The notes beneath the pieces were generated by a model. That model was given only the letters and a program-made list of their open reading frames with translations. It was not told the DNA's origin and ran no database searches. Below, one piece after another: positions 50,095 through 60,923 of a stretch of 64,000 bases of DNA. The position numbers were made by a program, and so were the translations under genes. Within the stretch, counting starts at the first letter, position 1, and each line of letters opens with the position of its first letter. The DNA is from Halanaerobiales bacterium (GTDB taxonomy: Bacteria; Bacillota; Halanaerobiia; Halanaerobiales; Halanaerobiaceae), in the NCBI GenBank assembly GCA_016278485.1, contig JADQBT010000002.1:291601-355600 (forward strand), read 5' to 3'.

Positions 50095-51165
50095 TTATTC
50101 ATATTCCAGACTCTTTTCTTCTTTTCTTAATACACGTAATGCGCCTGCTGCCAGTGCAGAAAGTTCTTCCTCACCTGGATAAATACTTACAGGAGCAATA
50201 AACGATACTCTTTTACTAATTGATGCTGTTAATTTATCTGAATAAGCCATTCCACCTGTTAAAATAACTGCATCAATATTACCATTAGCCGCTGCCGTTA
50301 ACGAACCAATCTCTTTGCTAATTTGATAAGCCATTGCTTTAAAGATAAGTTTGGCTTTTTTATCACCTGATTCAATTTGAGCTTCAACTTCTCTAAGATC
50401 TGTTGTGCCAAGATAGGCTAGTAAACCACCTTCGCCAACCAATTTTTTAATCAATTGATCTTTTGTATATTTTTCAGAATAAGCAAGTGCAACCACATCT
50501 TTAACAGGAACTGAGCCAGCTCTATTTGGTGAAAATGGACCATTACCACCCAGGGCGTCGTTAACATCAACAACCTGACCCTGCCGGTGAAGAGCAACAG
50601 ATATACCTCCACCAAGATGGGCAACAATCAAATTCAAATCTTGATACTCACAGCCAACTTTTTCCGCATATTTTCTGGCCACTGCTTTTTGATTTAAAGC
50701 ATGGAAAATACTCTTATGCTCAAGTTCAGGTAGCCCAGTAATTCGAACATGTGATGCAAGTTCATCAACTACAACAGGATCAACGATATAAGCTGGACAA
50801 TCTGCCTGATGAGCTATTTCATACGCAAGAATAGCCCCTAGATTACTTGCATGATTACCATATTTGCCTGATTTAAGGGTAGTTAACATTTTACCATTTA
50901 TAGCATAAGTTCCCCCAGTAATTGGTTTTAATAAACCGCCTCTTCCAACAACTGCAGAAAAATCATCCAATGAAAAACCTGCTTCTGTCAAAATGTTTAT
51001 AATATAATTATATCTCATCTGATCCTGGTCTACAACCTTATTGAAACGAGCCAGTTCTTCTCTTTGATGATCAATCGTTTTTATAAGCACCTGTTTATCA
51101 TCACAAAAAACACCTATTTTAGTTGATGTAGAACCCGGATTAATTGCAAGAATTAGTTTTTCCAT
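50095..51165 (-). CDS. buk: Butyrate kinase (branched-chain fatty acid kinase)
   Basis: ASKHA-fold acyl kinase that makes ATP from butyryl- or branched acyl-phosphate. The 356 residues show INPGSTSTKIGVF at the phosphate loop, VVGRGGLLKPITGGTY, LIVAHLGGGISVALH, NDALGGNGPFSPNRAGS and VILTGGMAYSD. With Ptb and VOR it gives substrate-level ATP from 2-oxoacids. ATG has AGGAG upstream; eleven bases separate it from bcd. Confidence 0.94.
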   Translation of the reverse strand: MEKLILAINPGSTSTKIGVFCDDKQVLIKTIDHQREELARFNKVVDQDQMRYNYIINILTEAGFSLDDFSAVVGRGGLLKPITGGTYAINGKMLTTLKSGKYGNHASNLGAILAYEIAHQADCPAYIVDPVVVDELASHVRITGLPELEHKSIFHALNQKAVARKYAEKVGCEYQDLNLIVAHLGGGISVALHRQGQVVDVNDALGGNGPFSPNRAGSVPVKDVVALAYSEKYTKDQLIKKLVGEGGLLAYLGTTDLREVEAQIESGDKKAKLIFKAMAYQISKEIGSLTAAANGNIDAVILTGGMAYSDKLTASISKRVSFIAPVSIYPGEEELSALAAGALRVLRKEEKSLEYE

Positions 51166-51176
51166 TTATAAACTCC

Positions 51177-52244
51177 TTAATTCCTCGGAATGTAATTTCT
51201 TCTTACTCTGGCGATTTTTTCTATTCTTTCTTCTGCCATAATATCAGCTGCTTGATAAGTTGAAATATTATCTCTTTTACTTATTTCAAATACTCTTTTA
51301 CAGTTATCAAATATCTTTTCTGCTTTAGCCATAGCCCGCTCTTTATTATAACCAAGTAATTCATCATAGACATTAATAACTCCACCTGCATTAATAACAT
51401 AATCAGGTGTATAGAGTATCCCTTTATCTTCTAACATGTCGCCATGACGTGGTTCAGCTAGAATATTATTTGCAGCTCCAGCAACTACATCACACTTTAA
51501 ACGATCAATTGTTTTATCATTGATTACTGCTCCAAGTGCACAAGGCGCAAATATATCACAATCTACGTCATAAATTTCATCAGGGGCAACAACTTTTACA
51601 TCCTCAATAGTTTCTGTTACATGATCAATATTTTCTTGTTTAATATCTGTTATTATTAATTTACCACCTTCATCTGCAATATGTTTAGCTAGATAATAAC
51701 CTACATGACCGACTCCTTGTAAAGCAACTACTTTACCATCTAAATCAGGAGAACCATAAAATTCTTCCGCAGCTGCTTTCATACCTCTCCAGACTCCAAA
51801 GGCAGTTACTGGAGACGGATCCCCAGAGGTACCAGGTAAACCTGTTACAAATTCAGTTTCTTCTGCTACAATCTTCATATCTTCAACACAGGTATTTACA
51901 TCTTCAGCAGTAATATATCTCCCATGTAAGCTCTGAATAAAACGACCATAAGCACGCATTAATTCTTCACTTTTTATTTTATCAGGATCTCCAATTATGA
52001 CAGCTTTCCCACCGCCAAGATTCAAGCCAGCTGCTGCTGATTTATAAGTCATACCTCTAGCCAGCCTTAAAACATCATTTAACGCTTCTTCTTCAGATTT
52101 ATAATTCCAAATTCTTGTTCCACCAAGCGCAGGACCTAACGTAGTATCATGAATACAAATAATTGCCTTCAAACCCGATTCTTGATCATGATTAAAAACC
52201 ACCTGTTCATAACCAAACTTTTCCATTCTTTCGAATAATTCCAT
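51177..52244 (-). CDS. bcd: Leucine/branched-chain amino acid dehydrogenase
   Basis: NAD-dependent oxidative deaminase of leucine, isoleucine and valine. The 355 residues contain [20 protein letters not shown], the catalytic lysine segment [14 protein letters not shown], the nucleotide fold [14 protein letters not shown] (about 178) and [10 protein letters not shown]. The length is typical of leucine rather than glutamate dehydrogenase (about 420). GAGGAGG precedes the ATG. It supplies the 2-oxoacids used by VorABCD. Confidence 0.93.
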
Positions 52245-52259
52245 TGATAATCCTCCTCT

Positions 52260-53174
52260 TTAATTTAAGATCTTTTGACCAGCTTCAAATAAAATACTTA
52301 AAGCCATTGAATTTACCTTAGTCTCCACACTATCAGAACGAGAACTAATAATTAAGGGGATAGAAGCACCCATAATAATACTTGCTGCTGGTTCTTTACC
52401 ATAAATAATCAAAGACTTATACAGCATATTTCCCGATTCTATATCAGGGACTACGAGAATATCAGCTTCTCCAGCTACTTGACTTTTAATTCTCTTATGC
52501 TCTGCCGCTTTTTTACTGACTGCATTATCAAAAGCAAGTGGACCATCAACTATTACTTCACCCAACTGGCCTCTCTGACTCATTTTAGAAATAATAGCTG
52601 CATCAGTAGTAGCTTTCATAGAACTATTAACTGTTTCTACAGCAGCCAAGATTGCCACTTTTGGTTGTTTAATACCCAACGCCTGGCCAAGAGTTACGGA
52701 ATTTTTTACGATCTGAACTTTTTCTTCTAAATTAGGAGCGATATTCATACCTGAATCTGTCAATATAATAAATCTCTTTTCGCGAGTAAGGTAGATTAGA
52801 GTTAACAGACTTAATAACCCTTCTTTTTTGAAAGAATACTTTTTGTCTAGCATAGCCTTCAAAATAGTACCCGTACTTAACATACCTTTCATGGGTAAAT
52901 CTGCTTCCTGATTAACAATCAATTCCATCGCCCGATGAGCAGCAGCCTGATTGTCTTGCGTAATTTCAATTCTTCCCTTGAAATCATAATCAACTTTTTT
53001 AAGAGCACCATCTATTTTCCTCTTATCACCGATCAAAATAGGCTCAATTAAATCAATTTCACTCGCCTTTTTGATACTCTTTAAGACTGTTGCATCACCT
53101 GCTGCAGCAACGCATATTCTCTTCTTTTCTTTTTTTAGAGCTGCTTTTACAAGACTATCCATATCTTTAAACAT
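52260..53174 (-). CDS. ptb: Phosphate butyryltransferase
   Basis: Converts butyryl- or branched acyl-CoA to the acyl phosphate. The 304 residues have KRICVAAAGDATVLKSIKKA, DLPMKGMLSTGTILKAML, LTDSGMNIAPNLEEKVQIV, DGPLAFDNAVS and ILVVPDIESGNMLYK, all typical of the Ptb/Pta family. First gene of the seven-gene operon, with its ATG at 53174 about 27 bases downstream of the predicted sigma-54 transcription start. Confidence 0.94.
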   Translation of the reverse strand: MFKDMDSLVKAALKKEKKRICVAAAGDATVLKSIKKASEIDLIEPILIGDKRKIDGALKKVDYDFKGRIEITQDNQAAAHRAMELIVNQEADLPMKGMLSTGTILKAMLDKKYSFKKEGLLSLLTLIYLTREKRFIILTDSGMNIAPNLEEKVQIVKNSVTLGQALGIKQPKVAILAAVETVNSSMKATTDAAIISKMSQRGQLGEVIVDGPLAFDNAVSKKAAEHKRIKSQVAGEADILVVPDIESGNMLYKSLIIYGKEPAASIIMGASIPLIISSRSDSVETKVNSMALSILFEAGQKILN

Positions 53175-53212
53175 TCAATTCCACCTCACTTTTGTTTCCA
53201 ATAATATTATAT

Positions 53213-53229
53213 TGCAATAATTATGCCAA
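53213..53229 (-). promoter_or_regulatory. Sigma-54 (RpoN/SigL) promoter of the ptb operon
   Basis: The minus strand reads TTGGCATAATTATTGCA. It has the invariant GG (-24) and GC (-12) separated by ten bases and TGGCAT-N5-TTGCA matching TGGCAC-N5-TTGCA with one change. A sigma-54 activator is encoded immediately upstream. Confidence 0.9.
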
Positions 53230-53303
53230 GTTATTGAATTGTGCAAAAATTATCATAACTGATATAACAGTAATCTATTTAACACTTAAATAATAATAAA
53301 TAA

Positions 53304-53363
53304 TAAATACTGCAAAATAAAGCGCGCCTGCAAAAAATTGCAGGAAAAAAATTGCAGTATTTA
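53304..53363. repeat. 60-bp nested palindrome between the sigma-54 activator gene and ptb
   Basis: Outer arms TAAATACTGCAA (53304-53315) and TTGCAGTATTTA (53352-53363) are perfect 12-base inverted repeats. They enclose a second perfect palindrome, CCTGCAA-AAAA-TTGCAGG (53327-53344). All four arms contain TGCAA/TTGCA. It lies 75-150 bases upstream of the sigma-54 promoter, the normal range of an enhancer, and just past the activator stop codon, so a role as terminator is also possible. Confidence 0.9.
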
Positions 53364-55079
53364 TCACAGACCATACTTTTTTAATTTGTAATATAGACTT
53401 CTGACAGCTATGCCTAGCATTTTTGCTGCTTCAGTCCGATTACCATCCGTTTTTTCCAAAGCATTTAAAATCGCTTCTTGCTCAGTTTTAGCAACAGTTT
53501 CAGCAAGAGTCATCTCCATATTTGCTCTTAATTTTTCTTGCTGATTACTTAGATCCAAATTATTATCATTTTTTAAATTTGGCAAATGATTTATAGTAAT
53601 GATTGACTCATCAATGCCAAGATAGATCATTGCTCTACCTATTACGTTTTCCAGTTCTCGCACATTTCCAGGCCAATCATAGTCAATTAATAAATTTAAT
53701 CCCTCTGGCGAAATACCAGTAACAGAACGTCCATATTCCTGATTTAATTTTCTAATAATATGATCAACTAAAAGGGAAATATCTTCTTTTCTATTTCTAA
53801 GTGGCGGTATATTTAAAGGAAAAACATTAAGTCTATAATAAAGGTCTTCCCGAAAATCACCCTGTTGAATTGCCTTTTCAAGATCTGTATTAGAAGCAAC
53901 TATAATTCTAACATCAATATCAATAGTTCTAGAACCACCTACACGCATAATCTCTCTTTCTTGAAGAACCCTTAATAATTTAGGTTGTAGACTAAGACTT
54001 ATTTTACCAATTTCATCTAAAAAGATAGTCCCTCCCTCTGCTTCTTCAAAAAGACCTTTTTTCCCTTCTTTTTTAGCTCCTGTAAATGCTCCTTCAACAT
54101 AACCAAACAGTTCACTTTCAATTAAATTATCTGATAAAGCTGCACAATTGACTCTAATAAATTTTTGCCCACTCCTGTCACTTTCATTATGAATAGCATG
54201 AGCAAATAGTTCCTTACCTGTCCCACTTTCTCCTCTTAGCAAAACTGTAACTGGTGTATGTGATGCTCTTCGTGCAAGTCCAGTAATATTTTTTATAGAC
54301 TTACTTTTACCAACAATATCATTAAAATTGTATTTTGCATCAATATGCCGGATTATTCTTTTAACCTGGTCCAATTCTTCTGTGAGTTTTTTTATCTCAG
54401 AAACATCTTTTATGACACCAACACTACCTTTTAAATTTCCATTAACTAAGATTGGAGCAACATCAACAATAACATCTTTTTTCTTGGGACCCACTCTCAT
54501 TCTTACATTGTGAACAGGTTCTTGTGTTTTGATTACTTGATAATGCATGCTTCTTCCTTCGGCTATATCTACAGTAGCAGGTTTTCCTAAAACATCTTTT
54601 TCCGTTAATCCGGTTAAACGTGTATAAGCTGGATTAATTAATAAACCTCTTCCATTTTCATCTACCACGGAAATTGCATCCTGGGTTGAATTAATAATTG
54701 CTTCTAAAAGAGCTTGCATCTCTTTTAAATTTATTACTTCTTTCGCAAAATTTTTAACTTCTTCTATATCTCTAAAAACAGCTACTGCCCCAATAACTTT
54801 ACCAGCATCATTTCTGACCGGCATTCGATTTGTAATAATTGTTTTATCGCCAAGGTATTGGGTCTGATTTAATTCCATTTGGCCTGTATTCATCACAATA
54901 TGCAATCTAGTATTTGGAATTACTTCTCTCACTTCACGGCCGATTACATTTTCTTTTTTGCGATTTAGTATTTTTTCAGCTGCCTTATTAAATAACTCAA
55001 CTTGCCCAGCTCGATCAATAGACAAAATACCGTCATGTGTAGCATCTAAGATTACATCTTTTTTTTGGTAGTTATCCAT
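53364..55079 (-). CDS. Sigma-54-dependent activator with two PAS domains (BkdR/RocR-like)
   Basis: Enhancer-binding protein that opens sigma-54 promoters. The 571 residues have two PAS domains (about 1-115 and 125-235), a AAA+ domain with GESGTGKELFAHAIH, the sigma-54 contact GAFTGAKKEG, GGTIFLDEIG and RLNVFPLNIPPLRNR, and a Fis-type helix-turn-helix (NRTEAAKMLGIAVRSLYYKL). There is no receiver domain, so it probably senses a small molecule. ATG 55079 fits AAGGGAG better than TTG 55082. It lies between arcA and the sigma-54 promoter of ptb, the best candidate target. Naming it BkdR is by position. Confidence 0.9.
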   Translation of the reverse strand: MDNYQKKDVILDATHDGILSIDRAGQVELFNKAAEKILNRKKENVIGREVREVIPNTRLHIVMNTGQMELNQTQYLGDKTIITNRMPVRNDAGKVIGAVAVFRDIEEVKNFAKEVINLKEMQALLEAIINSTQDAISVVDENGRGLLINPAYTRLTGLTEKDVLGKPATVDIAEGRSMHYQVIKTQEPVHNVRMRVGPKKKDVIVDVAPILVNGNLKGSVGVIKDVSEIKKLTEELDQVKRIIRHIDAKYNFNDIVGKSKSIKNITGLARRASHTPVTVLLRGESGTGKELFAHAIHNESDRSGQKFIRVNCAALSDNLIESELFGYVEGAFTGAKKEGKKGLFEEAEGGTIFLDEIGKISLSLQPKLLRVLQEREIMRVGGSRTIDIDVRIIVASNTDLEKAIQQGDFREDLYYRLNVFPLNIPPLRNRKEDISLLVDHIIRKLNQEYGRSVTGISPEGLNLLIDYDWPGNVRELENVIGRAMIYLGIDESIITINHLPNLKNDNNLDLSNQQEKLRANMEMTLAETVAKTEQEAILNALEKTDGNRTEAAKMLGIAVRSLYYKLKKYGL

Positions 55080-55094
55080 CAATTAACTCCCTTC

Positions 55095-56315
55095 TTATTC
55101 TCTATATAACGGCATACTCATACAACGTGGTCCTCCCCGTCCTCTTGAAAGTTCTGAACTTGATATTTTATGAGTTTTGACTCCTTTTTCTTGCAATAAT
55201 TGATTTGTAACATAATTGCGAGAATATACGACAACCTCACCAGGAGCAATAGCAAGAGTGTTAGAACCGTCATTCCATTGTTCTCGTCCTGCATCAATTA
55301 GATCTCCACCAGCACATCTAATTAAATGAACTTTATCTATTGAAAGATATTTTTTTAAAATATTTTTCAGAGTATCTTTCTCTTCTCGAATTTTTAGATT
55401 GTCAGAAGATCCAGCAGTAATAGAAAAAACACGCAGAGGGTCTTCAATAGCAGCATGTATTGTGAACTTATCATAGTCAACCATCGTAAAGACAGTATCA
55501 AGATGCATAAAAGCCCTTTTTTTTGGAATATTAAAGGCAAGTATTGTTGTAAATGTCTGATCACCGAAAAGTATATTTTTGGCAACTTTTTCAACTGCTT
55601 CTGCCCGAGTCCGTTGAGAAATTCCTATTGCTAATACTTCATTATTTAATACTAAAATATCTCCACCTTCAATAAAAGCTTTTTCATAGCGATTATAAAA
55701 GTGAGGAATATCTGCCTCAACAAAATCTGGATGGTAACGAAATATATATTCAGAGAATATTGTTTCTCTATTTCTAGTTGGAGCAAACATTTTATTTAAA
55801 GTAATACCATTTCCAATTGATGCAAAAGGATCTCTTGTAAAATATAGATTTGGCATCGGTTCTAAAATAAAGGGATAATTTCGATAAGCCATATCTCCTA
55901 AGGACTTTTCACCTAACTGATCTAAATCTGATTTTTTTAATCCTTCCATAGTTATCTTGACTAATTCTTTTTTATCCAAACCAGCAAAATAATTTTTAAT
56001 ATGATAAATTTTCGTTTCACTTCTAATTCCAGCTTCTGCAAGAAATTGATCAATAAATTTTTCTCTGATTTCTGGATTAACAATAGTTTCTGCCAGCAGA
56101 TCTTCTAAATATAATACTTCTGCTCCATTCTGTTTTAAAACGTTAGCAAACTCGTCATGTTCCTGCTGTGCTATTTCTAAAAAAGGTATGTCATCAAATA
56201 AAAGCCTTGCCATCAGATCAGGTGTCAATCTTTCTATCTCTTTGCCAGGCCTATGTAATAAAACTTTTTTTAAGCGAGCAATCTCAGAACTAATATTAAT
56301 CATATTTTCTGTCAT
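55095..56315 (-). CDS. arcA: Arginine deiminase
   Basis: Hydrolyses arginine to citrulline and ammonia. The 406 residues contain [57 protein letters not shown] (catalytic His) and the terminal [15 protein letters not shown] with the nucleophilic cysteine. The usual partners arcB, arcC and arcD are not in the window. Instead the sigma-54 activator gene follows after fifteen bases. ATG has AGGAG upstream. A TGCAA-N4-TTGCA palindrome lies between promoter and start. Confidence 0.96.
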
Positions 56316-56335
56316 TATTTCACTCCTATTTCATA

Positions 56336-56349
56336 TGCAATTTTTTGCA
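56336..56349. promoter_or_regulatory. Operator-like palindrome TGCAA-N4-TTGCA before arcA
   Basis: A perfect 14-bp palindrome with a T/A spacer, placed 20 bases before the arcA start and just downstream of the predicted transcription start. The same core is the centre of the nested palindrome at 53327-53344. The 5-4-5 layout resembles ARG boxes (TGAAT-N4-ATTCA), and argR is in the window. Confidence 0.6.
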
Positions 56350-56358
56350 GTCAAATTT

Positions 56359-56387
56359 ATTATATAATATTTTAACTAAATTATAAA
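56359..56387 (-). promoter_or_regulatory. Possible sigma-A promoter of arcA
   Basis: TTTATA (56382-56387), 17 bases and TATAAT (56359-56364) on the minus strand. The -10 is perfect, the -35 weak, which would suit a regulated promoter. Confidence 0.55.
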
Positions 56388-56388
56388 G

Positions 56389-56427
56389 AAAAAAAGACTC
56401 TGTCCCTATTATAGGGTTTACAGAGCC
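56389..56427 (-). terminator. Terminator of spo0A
   Basis: GGCTCTGT and ACAGAGTC pair (one G-T), with an inner CCCTATAATAGGG stem, followed by seven T residues on the minus strand, 20 bases past the spo0A stop. Confidence 0.85.
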
Positions 56428-56446
56428 ATTATTATAAAATATATTT

Positions 56447-57247
56447 TTATGATCTTACTTTTGTAGCTGATTGTAATTCTAAACGTAATTTATCAGCTAT
56501 TTTAGCAATAAATTGTGAATTAGTTGGTTTACCACTTGTAGAAGAAACGGTATTTCCAAAATACTTATTTAAAGCGTTAATATTACCTCTTTCCCAAGCA
56601 ACCTCGATAGCATGCCTAATTGCTCTTTCTACTCTACTTGAGGTCGTGTTGAATGTCTCTGCAACTTTAGGATATAATTCTTTTGTTACAGCTCCAAGTA
56701 ATTCCACCTCATTAATAACTAATTCAATTGCTTCCCTAATATAAAGATAACCCTTGATATGTGCTGGTACACCTAACTGGTGCATAATTTCAGTTATCTT
56801 GACATTGAGATCAACCTCACGTTTATTATTATTTCCAGCAAATACAAAACCTCTTGTACCTCCAGATGGAGGATTCATCATCTGTTCGATTCTTTCAACT
56901 AGCTTGTCTAGGTCAAAAGGTTTCATAATATAATAATTGGCACCAAGTTCAACAACGCGTTGTGTTACTTCTTCTTGTCCAAAAGCAGTTAAAATAATTG
57001 TCTTAACATCATCTGCCATTTCAAGCCGATTCATCTCTTCCATAACACCAATACCATCAAGATGGGGCATAATCAAATCTAGCACCAATACGTCGGGTTC
57101 TTTTTCTTGTAGTAACTCTAAACCATCTTGTCCATTATAAGCAATGCCAACAACCTCAAAATTATCTTGTTCGTTAAGATACTCACTTAAAAGCTGACAA
57201 AATTCTTTGTTATCGTCGATAAGCATGATTCTAACATTGTCATTCAT
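56447..57247 (-). CDS. spo0A: Sporulation master regulator Spo0A
   Basis: Response regulator that starts sporulation. The 266 residues comprise a receiver domain with the acidic pocket MLIDDNKEF and phospho-acceptor in [11 protein letters not shown], then ILTAFGQE and the YIMKPFD lysine. The C-terminal Spo0A DNA-binding domain (about 150-266) includes [20 protein letters not shown]. The ATG at 57262 is part of the ribosome site GGGGGT; the ATG at 57247 is preferred. Downstream of spoIVB, as in all spore formers. Confidence 0.98.
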
Positions 57248-57280
57248 AGAAATAACCCCCATAAAGTATATTTAGTTATA

Positions 57281-57310
57281 TAATTATACATAAATATAAA
57301 ATATACCTTT
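57281..57310 (-). promoter_or_regulatory. Possible sigma-H/sigma-A promoter of spo0A
   Basis: AAAGGTATA (57302-57310), 12 bases, then GTATAATTA (57281-57289) fits the sigma-H pattern with one mismatch in each half; the second block also contains a perfect sigma-A -10, TATAAT. Weak and by eye only. Confidence 0.35.
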
Positions 57311-57347
57311 TTTATTATGGAATTTTTTTACTAATTAGCATATTTTA

Positions 57348-58658
57348 TTAATTTGCAGCCTTAAACTGTCGATTATTATAGATGTTTGTTTCCATCAACA
57401 TCCATTCTGCAAAAATTCCATATCCACGTAAAGGGTTATTTATAAAGACATGAGTTACTGCCCCTATTAGTTTACCATTTTGAACAATTGGACTACCACT
57501 CATACCTTGTATTATGCCACCAGTTTTACTTTTTAATTCCTTATCAACTATTGATATAATCATTCCTTTACTAGAAGGATAACCTTGTTGATAAACACGA
57601 TCTATATTAATTTTATATTTTTCAATATCGCCGCCTTCAATAACTGTATAAATACTTGCTGGACCTTTATTTACCTCAGATATTGCTGCAATAGGTATTT
57701 CTTCTTTAAAATAATTATTAACCGGTGGTCTTTCTAATTTACCATAAATTCCAAAATCACAATTTTTTTTGATGTTCCCTAAAATATTAGCTTCAGGATA
57801 AAATGCACCTAATTTTTCCCCAGGAATACCATTCCTGCCACTCTGAATACCAGTTATACTTGCTTCAATAATTCGACCATCTTTTAGTTTGATTTTTGAT
57901 TTACTGTGACTTTCAATAATTACATGGCCTAATGCACCATATTCTTTTGTCTTTTTATCGTAAAATGTTAATGTTCCTACTCCAGCAATGCCATCATCAA
58001 TATATAAGCCAATTAAATACTGATTATCCTTATTCTTGACTGCATTTACTGATATTTCCTTAAGTGCACCACTTTTTTTGCGAATAATAAAATTTAAGTT
58101 TTCCGCTTGCTTCCCAAATTGTTGAATAAGATCTGCTAAATGACCTTTACTCTTAATTTTTGTTCCATTTACACTCAATAAAATATCACCAGGCTCAATT
58201 CCTTGTTTACGAGCCGGTGAATAGCGATTTCCTTTAGTTCCATAGACAACTGCTCTACCGACAACTATCACGCCTTCAGTACGCATCAATACTCCAATAG
58301 CCTGACCGCCAGGCATCACACTTACAGAAGGTAACACATTTAATTTCACTCTTCTTAATGGAATGAGACCAAAAAGTTTAAAATATAGATCTGTTTCGCC
58401 TGTATTCTTTCCTTTTAATGTTATCCTGGAAGAATCTACTGTAATTAATTTTTCATTTAATGATTCACCATTTATCTCAATCAAATCAGTTTTATCTATT
58501 AATAAATGAAGCGCACCTGGAAATGAAAGATTAAAAATTGATGAATCATTTTCAATAATTGATAATCTTTCTGGTAATTCTTGTAAAGCCTGTCCACCAA
58601 TAAAATTAAAAATAAATAAGAATATAAGACCAACAAAAATGATGTTTTTTCTTATCAA
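57348..58658 (-). CDS. spoIVB: SpoIVB serine peptidase
   Basis: Forespore-secreted protease that signals across the intermembrane space to activate pro-sigma-K processing. The 436 residues have an N-terminal membrane anchor (IIFVGLIFLFIFNFIGG) and a PDZ domain (about 115-210, GIEPGDILLSVNG). A S55 catalytic domain with GALGHVI and the serine motif GIIQGMSGSPIVQNGKLIGA follows. The start is a TTG with GGGGGAG upstream. It lies between recN and spo0A. Confidence 0.96.
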   Translation of the reverse strand: MIRKNIIFVGLIFLFIFNFIGGQALQELPERLSIIENDSSIFNLSFPGALHLLIDKTDLIEINGESLNEKLITVDSSRITLKGKNTGETDLYFKLFGLIPLRRVKLNVLPSVSVMPGGQAIGVLMRTEGVIVVGRAVVYGTKGNRYSPARKQGIEPGDILLSVNGTKIKSKGHLADLIQQFGKQAENLNFIIRKKSGALKEISVNAVKNKDNQYLIGLYIDDGIAGVGTLTFYDKKTKEYGALGHVIIESHSKSKIKLKDGRIIEASITGIQSGRNGIPGEKLGAFYPEANILGNIKKNCDFGIYGKLERPPVNNYFKEEIPIAAISEVNKGPASIYTVIEGGDIEKYKINIDRVYQQGYPSSKGMIISIVDKELKSKTGGIIQGMSGSPIVQNGKLIGAVTHVFINNPLRGYGIFAEWMLMETNIYNNRQFKAAN

Positions 58659-60470: not shown

Positions 60471-60923
60471 CTAATTAAAAAGGTCTTCTAACTTTTTAAA
60501 AACCACATCAGTTTTATCTATTGGCTTGGTAATAATCATAATAGTATCATCACCAGCAATCGTTCCCATTACATAACTCCAGTTTGCATTATCTAGTGCC
60601 GCACCTAAACCTCCAGCTGTACCAGGCACAGTTTTTATTAAAATTAAATTTTCACTATAATCAAGATCAATTACAAAATCCTGTACCATCTTTTTTAACC
60701 AATCATTTAAATCAGCATCTCGTCTTTTGGATGGCAAAGAATATTTATAACCTCCCTTACCATCAGGAATTTTAATTAATCCTAATTTTTTTATATCTCG
60801 GGAAACAGTCGCTTGTGTAACATCTATTCCTGCTTCTTCTAATGCAGCAACTAATTCTTCTTGAGTGCCTATATTATTATTTTTAATTAATTTAATGATC
60901 TCAAGATGTCTCTTATTTTTCAA
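60471..60923 (-). CDS. argR: Arginine repressor ArgR/AhrC
   Basis: Hexameric arginine-responsive regulator. The 150 residues have an N-terminal winged helix (IGTQEELVAALEEAGIDVTQ, ATVSRDIKKLGLIK) and a C-terminal oligomerisation and arginine-binding domain with TVPGTAGGLGAALDNANW and GTIAGDDTIMII, which holds the two acidic ligand residues. The start is a TTG at 60923 seven bases after GGAGG. Candidate ARG-box-like sites occur before arcA and near ptb. Confidence 0.96.
   Translation of the reverse strand: MKNKRHLEIIKLIKNNNIGTQEELVAALEEAGIDVTQATVSRDIKKLGLIKIPDGKGGYKYSLPSKRRDADLNDWLKKMVQDFVIDLDYSENLILIKTVPGTAGGLGAALDNANWSYVMGTIAGDDTIMIITKPIDKTDVVFKKLEDLFN

Follow-up and report, generated by a model that had tools for sequence, protein, structure and literature searches.

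The BkdR protein of Bacillus, as described, has two PAS domains and its gene adjoins, in the same direction, a sigma-54-dependent phosphate butyryltransferase operon (PMC4428206), and both features are shared by the enhancer-binding protein (EBP) considered here. The present case differs in that the operon of the EBP opens with arcA, and the likeness is one of description, not of sequence or model. In Escherichia coli, pspF and its target operon are divergently oriented and pspF is a separate unit, whereas the metabolic gene arcA shares an operon with the EBP gene at this locus. PspF is nevertheless comparable as an EBP that holds its own level low via negative feedback, as stated in the accessible sections of the source (PMC7229158). 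GabR of B. thuringiensis, a PAS-type activator, does not bind its own promoter according to the part of the report available (PMC4279683), and autoregulation by an EBP is thus plausible but not a rule.

PrdR and the other EBP groups of the Clostridiales (Nie et al. 2019) resemble the present group in that their upstream activating sequences (UAS) mostly lie 100–250 bp before the promoter and comprise several sites, and in that they mostly serve one local target operon (available portions of PMC6615313). The PrdR-type UAS is given there as TGT-N10-12-ACA, in contrast to CTGCAA-N4-TTGCAG for the group examined here. The terms 'ptb', 'arcA', 'ArgR' and 'Halanaerobi' do not occur in the accessible main text of that study (PMC6615313), and our literature search recognised no paper on these EBPs or on a UAS with CTGCAA. 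Against the NCBIfam PrdR equivalog model NF041552 the EBP scored 509.5 bits, under the cut-off of 795.

The window, a stretch of 64,000 nucleotides from a Halanaerobiales bacterium, includes the features listed in Table 1. The EBP gene starts 12 nt past the arcA stop if a TTG start is used (15 nt if the next ATG is used) and, because of this spacing, arcA and the EBP gene very probably form one operon. The EBP has the make-up of a bacterial EBP, combining an AAA+ domain that includes GAFTGA with a Fis HTH in a genome that encodes RpoN (437 bits, outside the window). A close EBP (66% identity) was found in a Halanaerobiaceae metagenome-assembled genome (L015). An Rfam search of 52900–57300 gave 0 matches.

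Table 1. Features of the arcA–ptb region and argR, with positions in the window
Feature	Position	Strand	Basis
argR	60471..60923	(-)	Above cut-off of TIGR01529 (153.8 bits)
Predicted sigma-A promoter of the arcA-EBP operon, TTTATA-N17-TATAAT	56359..56387	(-)	Consensus match only, 10/12
arcA operator (predicted), CTGCAAAAAATTGCAT	56335..56350	(-)	1-mismatch copy of EBP motif CTGCAA-N4-TTGCAG
arcA, arginine deiminase	55095..56315	(-)	TIGR01078 559.6 bits, cut-off 489.1
Sigma-54 activator (EBP): PAS, PAS, AAA+ with GAFTGA, Fis-type HTH	53364..55082	(-)	PF00158, PF02954; GAFTGA in translation
ptb enhancer (UAS): CTGCAA 53357-53352, dyad CTGCAATTTTTTGCAG 53343-53328, TTGCAG 53315-53310	53310..53357	(-)	Motif, conservation, matrix
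Sigma-54 -24/-12 promoter of ptb operon, TTGGCATAATTATTGCA	53213..53229	(-)	Sole 0-mismatch match in window
ptb, phosphate butyryltransferase family	52260..53174	(-)	PF01515; 315 bits, under equivalog cut-off 410.5
Glu/Leu/Phe/Val-type amino-acid dehydrogenase	51177..52244	(-)	PF02812, PF00208
buk, butyrate kinase	50095..51165	(-)	TIGR02707 526.7 bits, over cut-off

The original prediction placed a perfect TGCAA-N4-TTGCA palindrome over the start region of arcA and held it to be the same as one upstream of ptb. A pattern search of the window found the 14-bp palindrome TGCAATTTTTTGCA, perfect and exactly at 56336–56349, and a second perfect copy in the ptb upstream region at 53329–53342, with no further exact copies. 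The two are identical in the 14-bp core, but the ptb element is larger and is made up of four half-sites, whereas the arcA site consists of the central dyad without outer half-sites. On the arcA strand, the 16-bp dyad starts 8 nt 3' of the sigma-A -10 sequence TATAAT and spans roughly positions +2 to +17 relative to the predicted transcription start, with the arcA start codon at 56315. A site just past the -10 is placed like the operator of a repressor and, in line with the original prediction, not like a sigma-54 enhancer. No -24/-12 sequence within 2 mismatches was found near arcA (53230–57995), so the arcA site, which has the dyad with one mismatch, does not precede a sigma-54 promoter as a UAS does, while the ptb site is followed by a promoter of this kind with 0 mismatches. 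The downstream sigma-54 promoter that the prediction had named as a sign of the activator was therefore present at only one of the two places.

Of the 38 genomes of the order Halanaerobiales, 17 encode an EBP orthologue (E <= 1e-150), and in all 17 loci CTGCAA-N4-TTGCAG was found 3' of the EBP stop codon, with 0 (eight loci), 1 (seven) or 2 (two) mismatches. The dyad lay 15–111 bp past the stop and 68–217 bp 5' of a -24/-12-like sequence (0–2 mismatches) in every case. An 18th locus of the order, in which the EBP gene is cut by the contig end (G028), also has the dyad. In an alignment of the 18 UAS the core CTGCA was invariant, and further conserved half-site letters were seen 14 bp 5' and about 12 bp 3' of the dyad. 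The recognition helix of the EBP reads IA[VI]RSLYYK in 16 of the 17 orthologues and ISVRSLYYK in the remaining one. At the level of the class, an EBP was detected at E <= 1e-160 in 27 of 59 genomes. The dyad was present within 2 mismatches at seven of the ten EBP loci outside the order; in the other three (L260, L261 and L263) the motif was not found 3' of the EBP gene, the best matches having 3, 5 and 5 mismatches, respectively. A gene for a small P-loop ATPase with a TIFTGNYGSGKTE-like start was observed directly 5' of the EBP gene in many relatives (L091, L092, L093, L097, L100–L103, L262 and L264–L267).

A 20-bp matrix built on the rows of the 17 relatives, with the window genome left out, gave its highest score in the window to the ptb UAS (30.5) and its second highest to the arcA site (18.3), and the best unrelated place scored 12.4. 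As judged from its letters, the arcA site is a fair but weaker match to the EBP motif than the ptb UAS; it has one outer-base mismatch and is without the conserved TGC 5' of CTGCAA. The arcA site is known from the window genome alone, which is the sole genome of its genus in the comparison set. Upstream of the EBP gene in 16 relatives, no copy of the motif with fewer than 3 mismatches was found, and autoregulation is therefore not a conserved trait of the EBP group.

The bare 5-4-5 pattern is only weakly unusual. Allowing one mismatch, TGCAA-N4-TTGCA occurs eight times in the window against 5.2 expected, and with a count this near to expectation the case rests on footprinting, the 14-mer alone being weak proof. 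Both palindromes might be chance matches or RNA hairpins, a terminator after the EBP gene and a leader hairpin at arcA. As RNA, the ptb element forms a good fold (-26.7 kcal/mol, z -6.8), but the hairpin at arcA has little stability (-3.5 kcal/mol, z -0.57). Similarly, the UAS of several relatives falls within a hairpin that resembles a terminator and has a T run (G031, G021, G035, G037 and G033), but a terminator needs no CTGCAA letters, and these were kept in others with a short stem and no direct T run (G024, G025 and G026). Among 3000 dinucleotide shuffles of the 131-bp spo0A-arcA gap, one reached the matrix score of the arcA site and none contained the exact palindrome. The palindrome at arcA is real and non-random, and we regard chance or RNA folding as an improbable source of the two sites. 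The UAS lies inside a terminator-like hairpin 3' of the EBP gene in several relatives (L091, L092, L097, L101 and L103), possibly as one element with two uses, and the enhancer in the window (53310–53357) also overlaps such a hairpin.

Genome-wide scans placed the exact 14-mer at six places in the 2.857 Mb genome, namely the two window sites, three inside ORFs and one (L006) covered by no ORF of >=80 aa. CTGCAA-N4-TTGCAG with <=1 mismatch was found at 11 places, comprising ptb (0 mismatches), arcA (1) and nine others, all nine inside ORFs of >=100 aa. Only the ptb and arcA sites lie outside ORFs, and the nine other places imply, as a rough estimate, that a chance match would fall in the spo0A-arcA gap in about 4 of 10,000 cases (9/2.857 Mb × about 116 positions). 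Across the 38 genomes of the order the exact CTGCAA-N4-TTGCAG was found at 19 places, nine of them EBP-linked, nine in ORFs and one intergenic, the last in a genome (G002) with no EBP over threshold. The scan proposed with the original prediction thus yielded, outside ORFs, the window sites and L006, and the motif was not found before any arginine biosynthesis gene elsewhere in these lists. With only two places of <=1 mismatch outside ORFs, there is no arginine regulon for the motif.

This bears on the first of two readings put forward for the palindrome, an ArgR box particular to this lineage that would connect arginine with branched-chain fermentation. According to this reading, ArgR with arginine would bind TGCAA-N4-TTGCA as a divergent ARG box and control arcA. 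The 5-4-5 layout is that of ARG boxes, but the arcA site is 4 of 10 letters off both the TGAAT- and the TGTAT-type boxes. The argR gene is nearby, but across the order the motif tracks the EBP gene and not the arg genes, and no TGCAA 5-4-5 site (<=1 mismatch) was found upstream of 30 argG and 15 argC genes of relatives. We presume that the location of argR near arcA simply reflects the common argR-recN-spoIVB-spo0A gene order. In the available sections of one source, ArgR proteins are described as also acting on the arginine deiminase pathway, the Bacillus and Thermotoga type of ArgR as having broad or poor target specificity, and the Streptomyces ARG box as TGCAT-N4-ATGCA, which by eye is two letters from the arcA site when compared with the consensus (PMC4865122). 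The ArgR of the window genome is intact, and its recognition stretch VTQATVSRDIK, identical to that of the solved 1f9n chain, also counts against this reading.

The boxes used by ArgR in relatives were sought by enumerating 5-4-5 palindromes upstream of 30 argG genes and of 15 of 20 argC genes (five loci were dropped where the start motif was not found), and no clear ARG box emerged for the family to which the window genome belongs. When the enumeration was repeated on 19 of the 20 argC loci (L205 was dropped), TGAAT/TGTAT-type boxes were found in L201–L204 and L206. These argC boxes, from another family of the order, read TGAATATATATACA and TGTATAATAATACA and resemble the ARG consensus sequences in the available part of the published account (PMC4865122). 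The palindrome ACGTA-N4-TGCGT was enriched 5' of argG, where the leader contains GTGGTACCACGG as well and was seen in a sister genus (L131, L133, L136, L143 and L149). We take GTGGTACCACGG to be T-box-like, which suggests control of argG by tRNA and not by ArgR in that genus.

In the window genome, which is 96.4% complete, argG is absent (best match 20.9 bits), and argC (74.4 bits against a cut-off of 233.6) and ornithine carbamoyltransferase (256.2 against 280.85) are both under cut-off. The classical arginine regulon is therefore missing, leaving none for an ARG box to serve. The palindrome is very probably not an ARG box, and ArgR control of arcA through it is very unlikely; since the Streptomyces box is only two letters off and an ARG box of the own family was not found, we do not put this more strongly. 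With arcA present and these genes absent or under cut-off, the organism is probably an arginine auxotroph whose deiminase lacks the enzyme that normally accompanies it, unless a carbamoyltransferase paralogue on C9 (256 bits) substitutes.

An arcA gene over cut-off was found in 12 of the 38 genomes of the order. In eight of these (L105, L106 and L110–L115) the palindrome AACYAC-N4-GTWGTT lies just 3' of the arcA -10; it is missing from the window genome (G000), G010, G013 (in which the contig begins close upstream) and G023. All eight genomes with this palindrome also have a gene for a regulator that we take to be TrmB-like. At E <= 1e-30 this gene was detected in ten of the 38 genomes, including G023 and, as a weak match (30%), G020, whereas the window genome gave no match at this threshold. 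The AACYAC-N4-GTWGTT palindrome and the TrmB-like regulator are likely the operator and repressor of the arc operon in the eight relatives. At this position the window genome thus carries another palindrome, and in our reading a different regulator acts there. In several relatives arc genes lie directly 5' of the EBP gene. In G013 (L088, about 1290–1450) the interval from spo0A to the EBP gene contains what is left of an arcA gene, reduced to its two ends, which suggests that an arcA-EBP layout like that of the window genome existed there earlier.

The second reading put forward was that the activator whose gene lies between arcA and ptb binds here, and its motif is borne out by footprinting, the rank in the matrix search and the genome-wide distribution; binding and repression we infer from these. 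The arcA palindrome is probably a site of the EBP through which it would regulate its own gene negatively and control arcA as well. The EBP would bind the four-half-site enhancer about 107 bp 5' of the ptb -24/-12 promoter and, via RpoN, would activate the genes for branched-chain amino-acid fermentation. On accumulating, it would occupy the arcA dyad and prevent both arcA and its own gene from being transcribed with sigma-A, and this negative feedback loop would cap the level of EBP. Arginine deiminase would also be held down, since arcA leads the operon. As the dyad covers the start of a sigma-A promoter with no -24/-12 sequence close by, EBP binding there should block transcription, and the site would be of EBP type but not the enhancer of a sigma-54 promoter. 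EBP sites usually activate, and the EBP could instead be a co-activator or enhancer at arcA, or the site could serve another Fis-type EBP, 31 candidate frames having been returned by an initial, unsorted search of the genome. The missing -24/-12 sequence argues against activation at arcA, however, the dyad overlaps the predicted transcription start and the matrix was derived from this EBP group, and we consider such a role unlikely. Repression of the arcA-EBP operon by its own activator would be regulation of a local and ordinary type, with a newly defined motif.

The analysis provides a testable binding motif and a likely two-site regulon for a sigma-54 activator group with a wide distribution in this class of anaerobes, and a supposed new type of ARG box no longer needs to be considered. 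Gene order links the arginine deiminase pathway with the fermentation of branched-chain amino acids, and in one genome a shared site does so too. It is conceivable, though we hold it only tentatively, that in the lineage of the window genome, where arcA is without TrmB-like control, a single EBP activates branched-chain fermentation and represses both arcA and itself. If true, this cross-pathway switch would place one protein between two amino-acid energy sources, acting through an operator of the same sequence.
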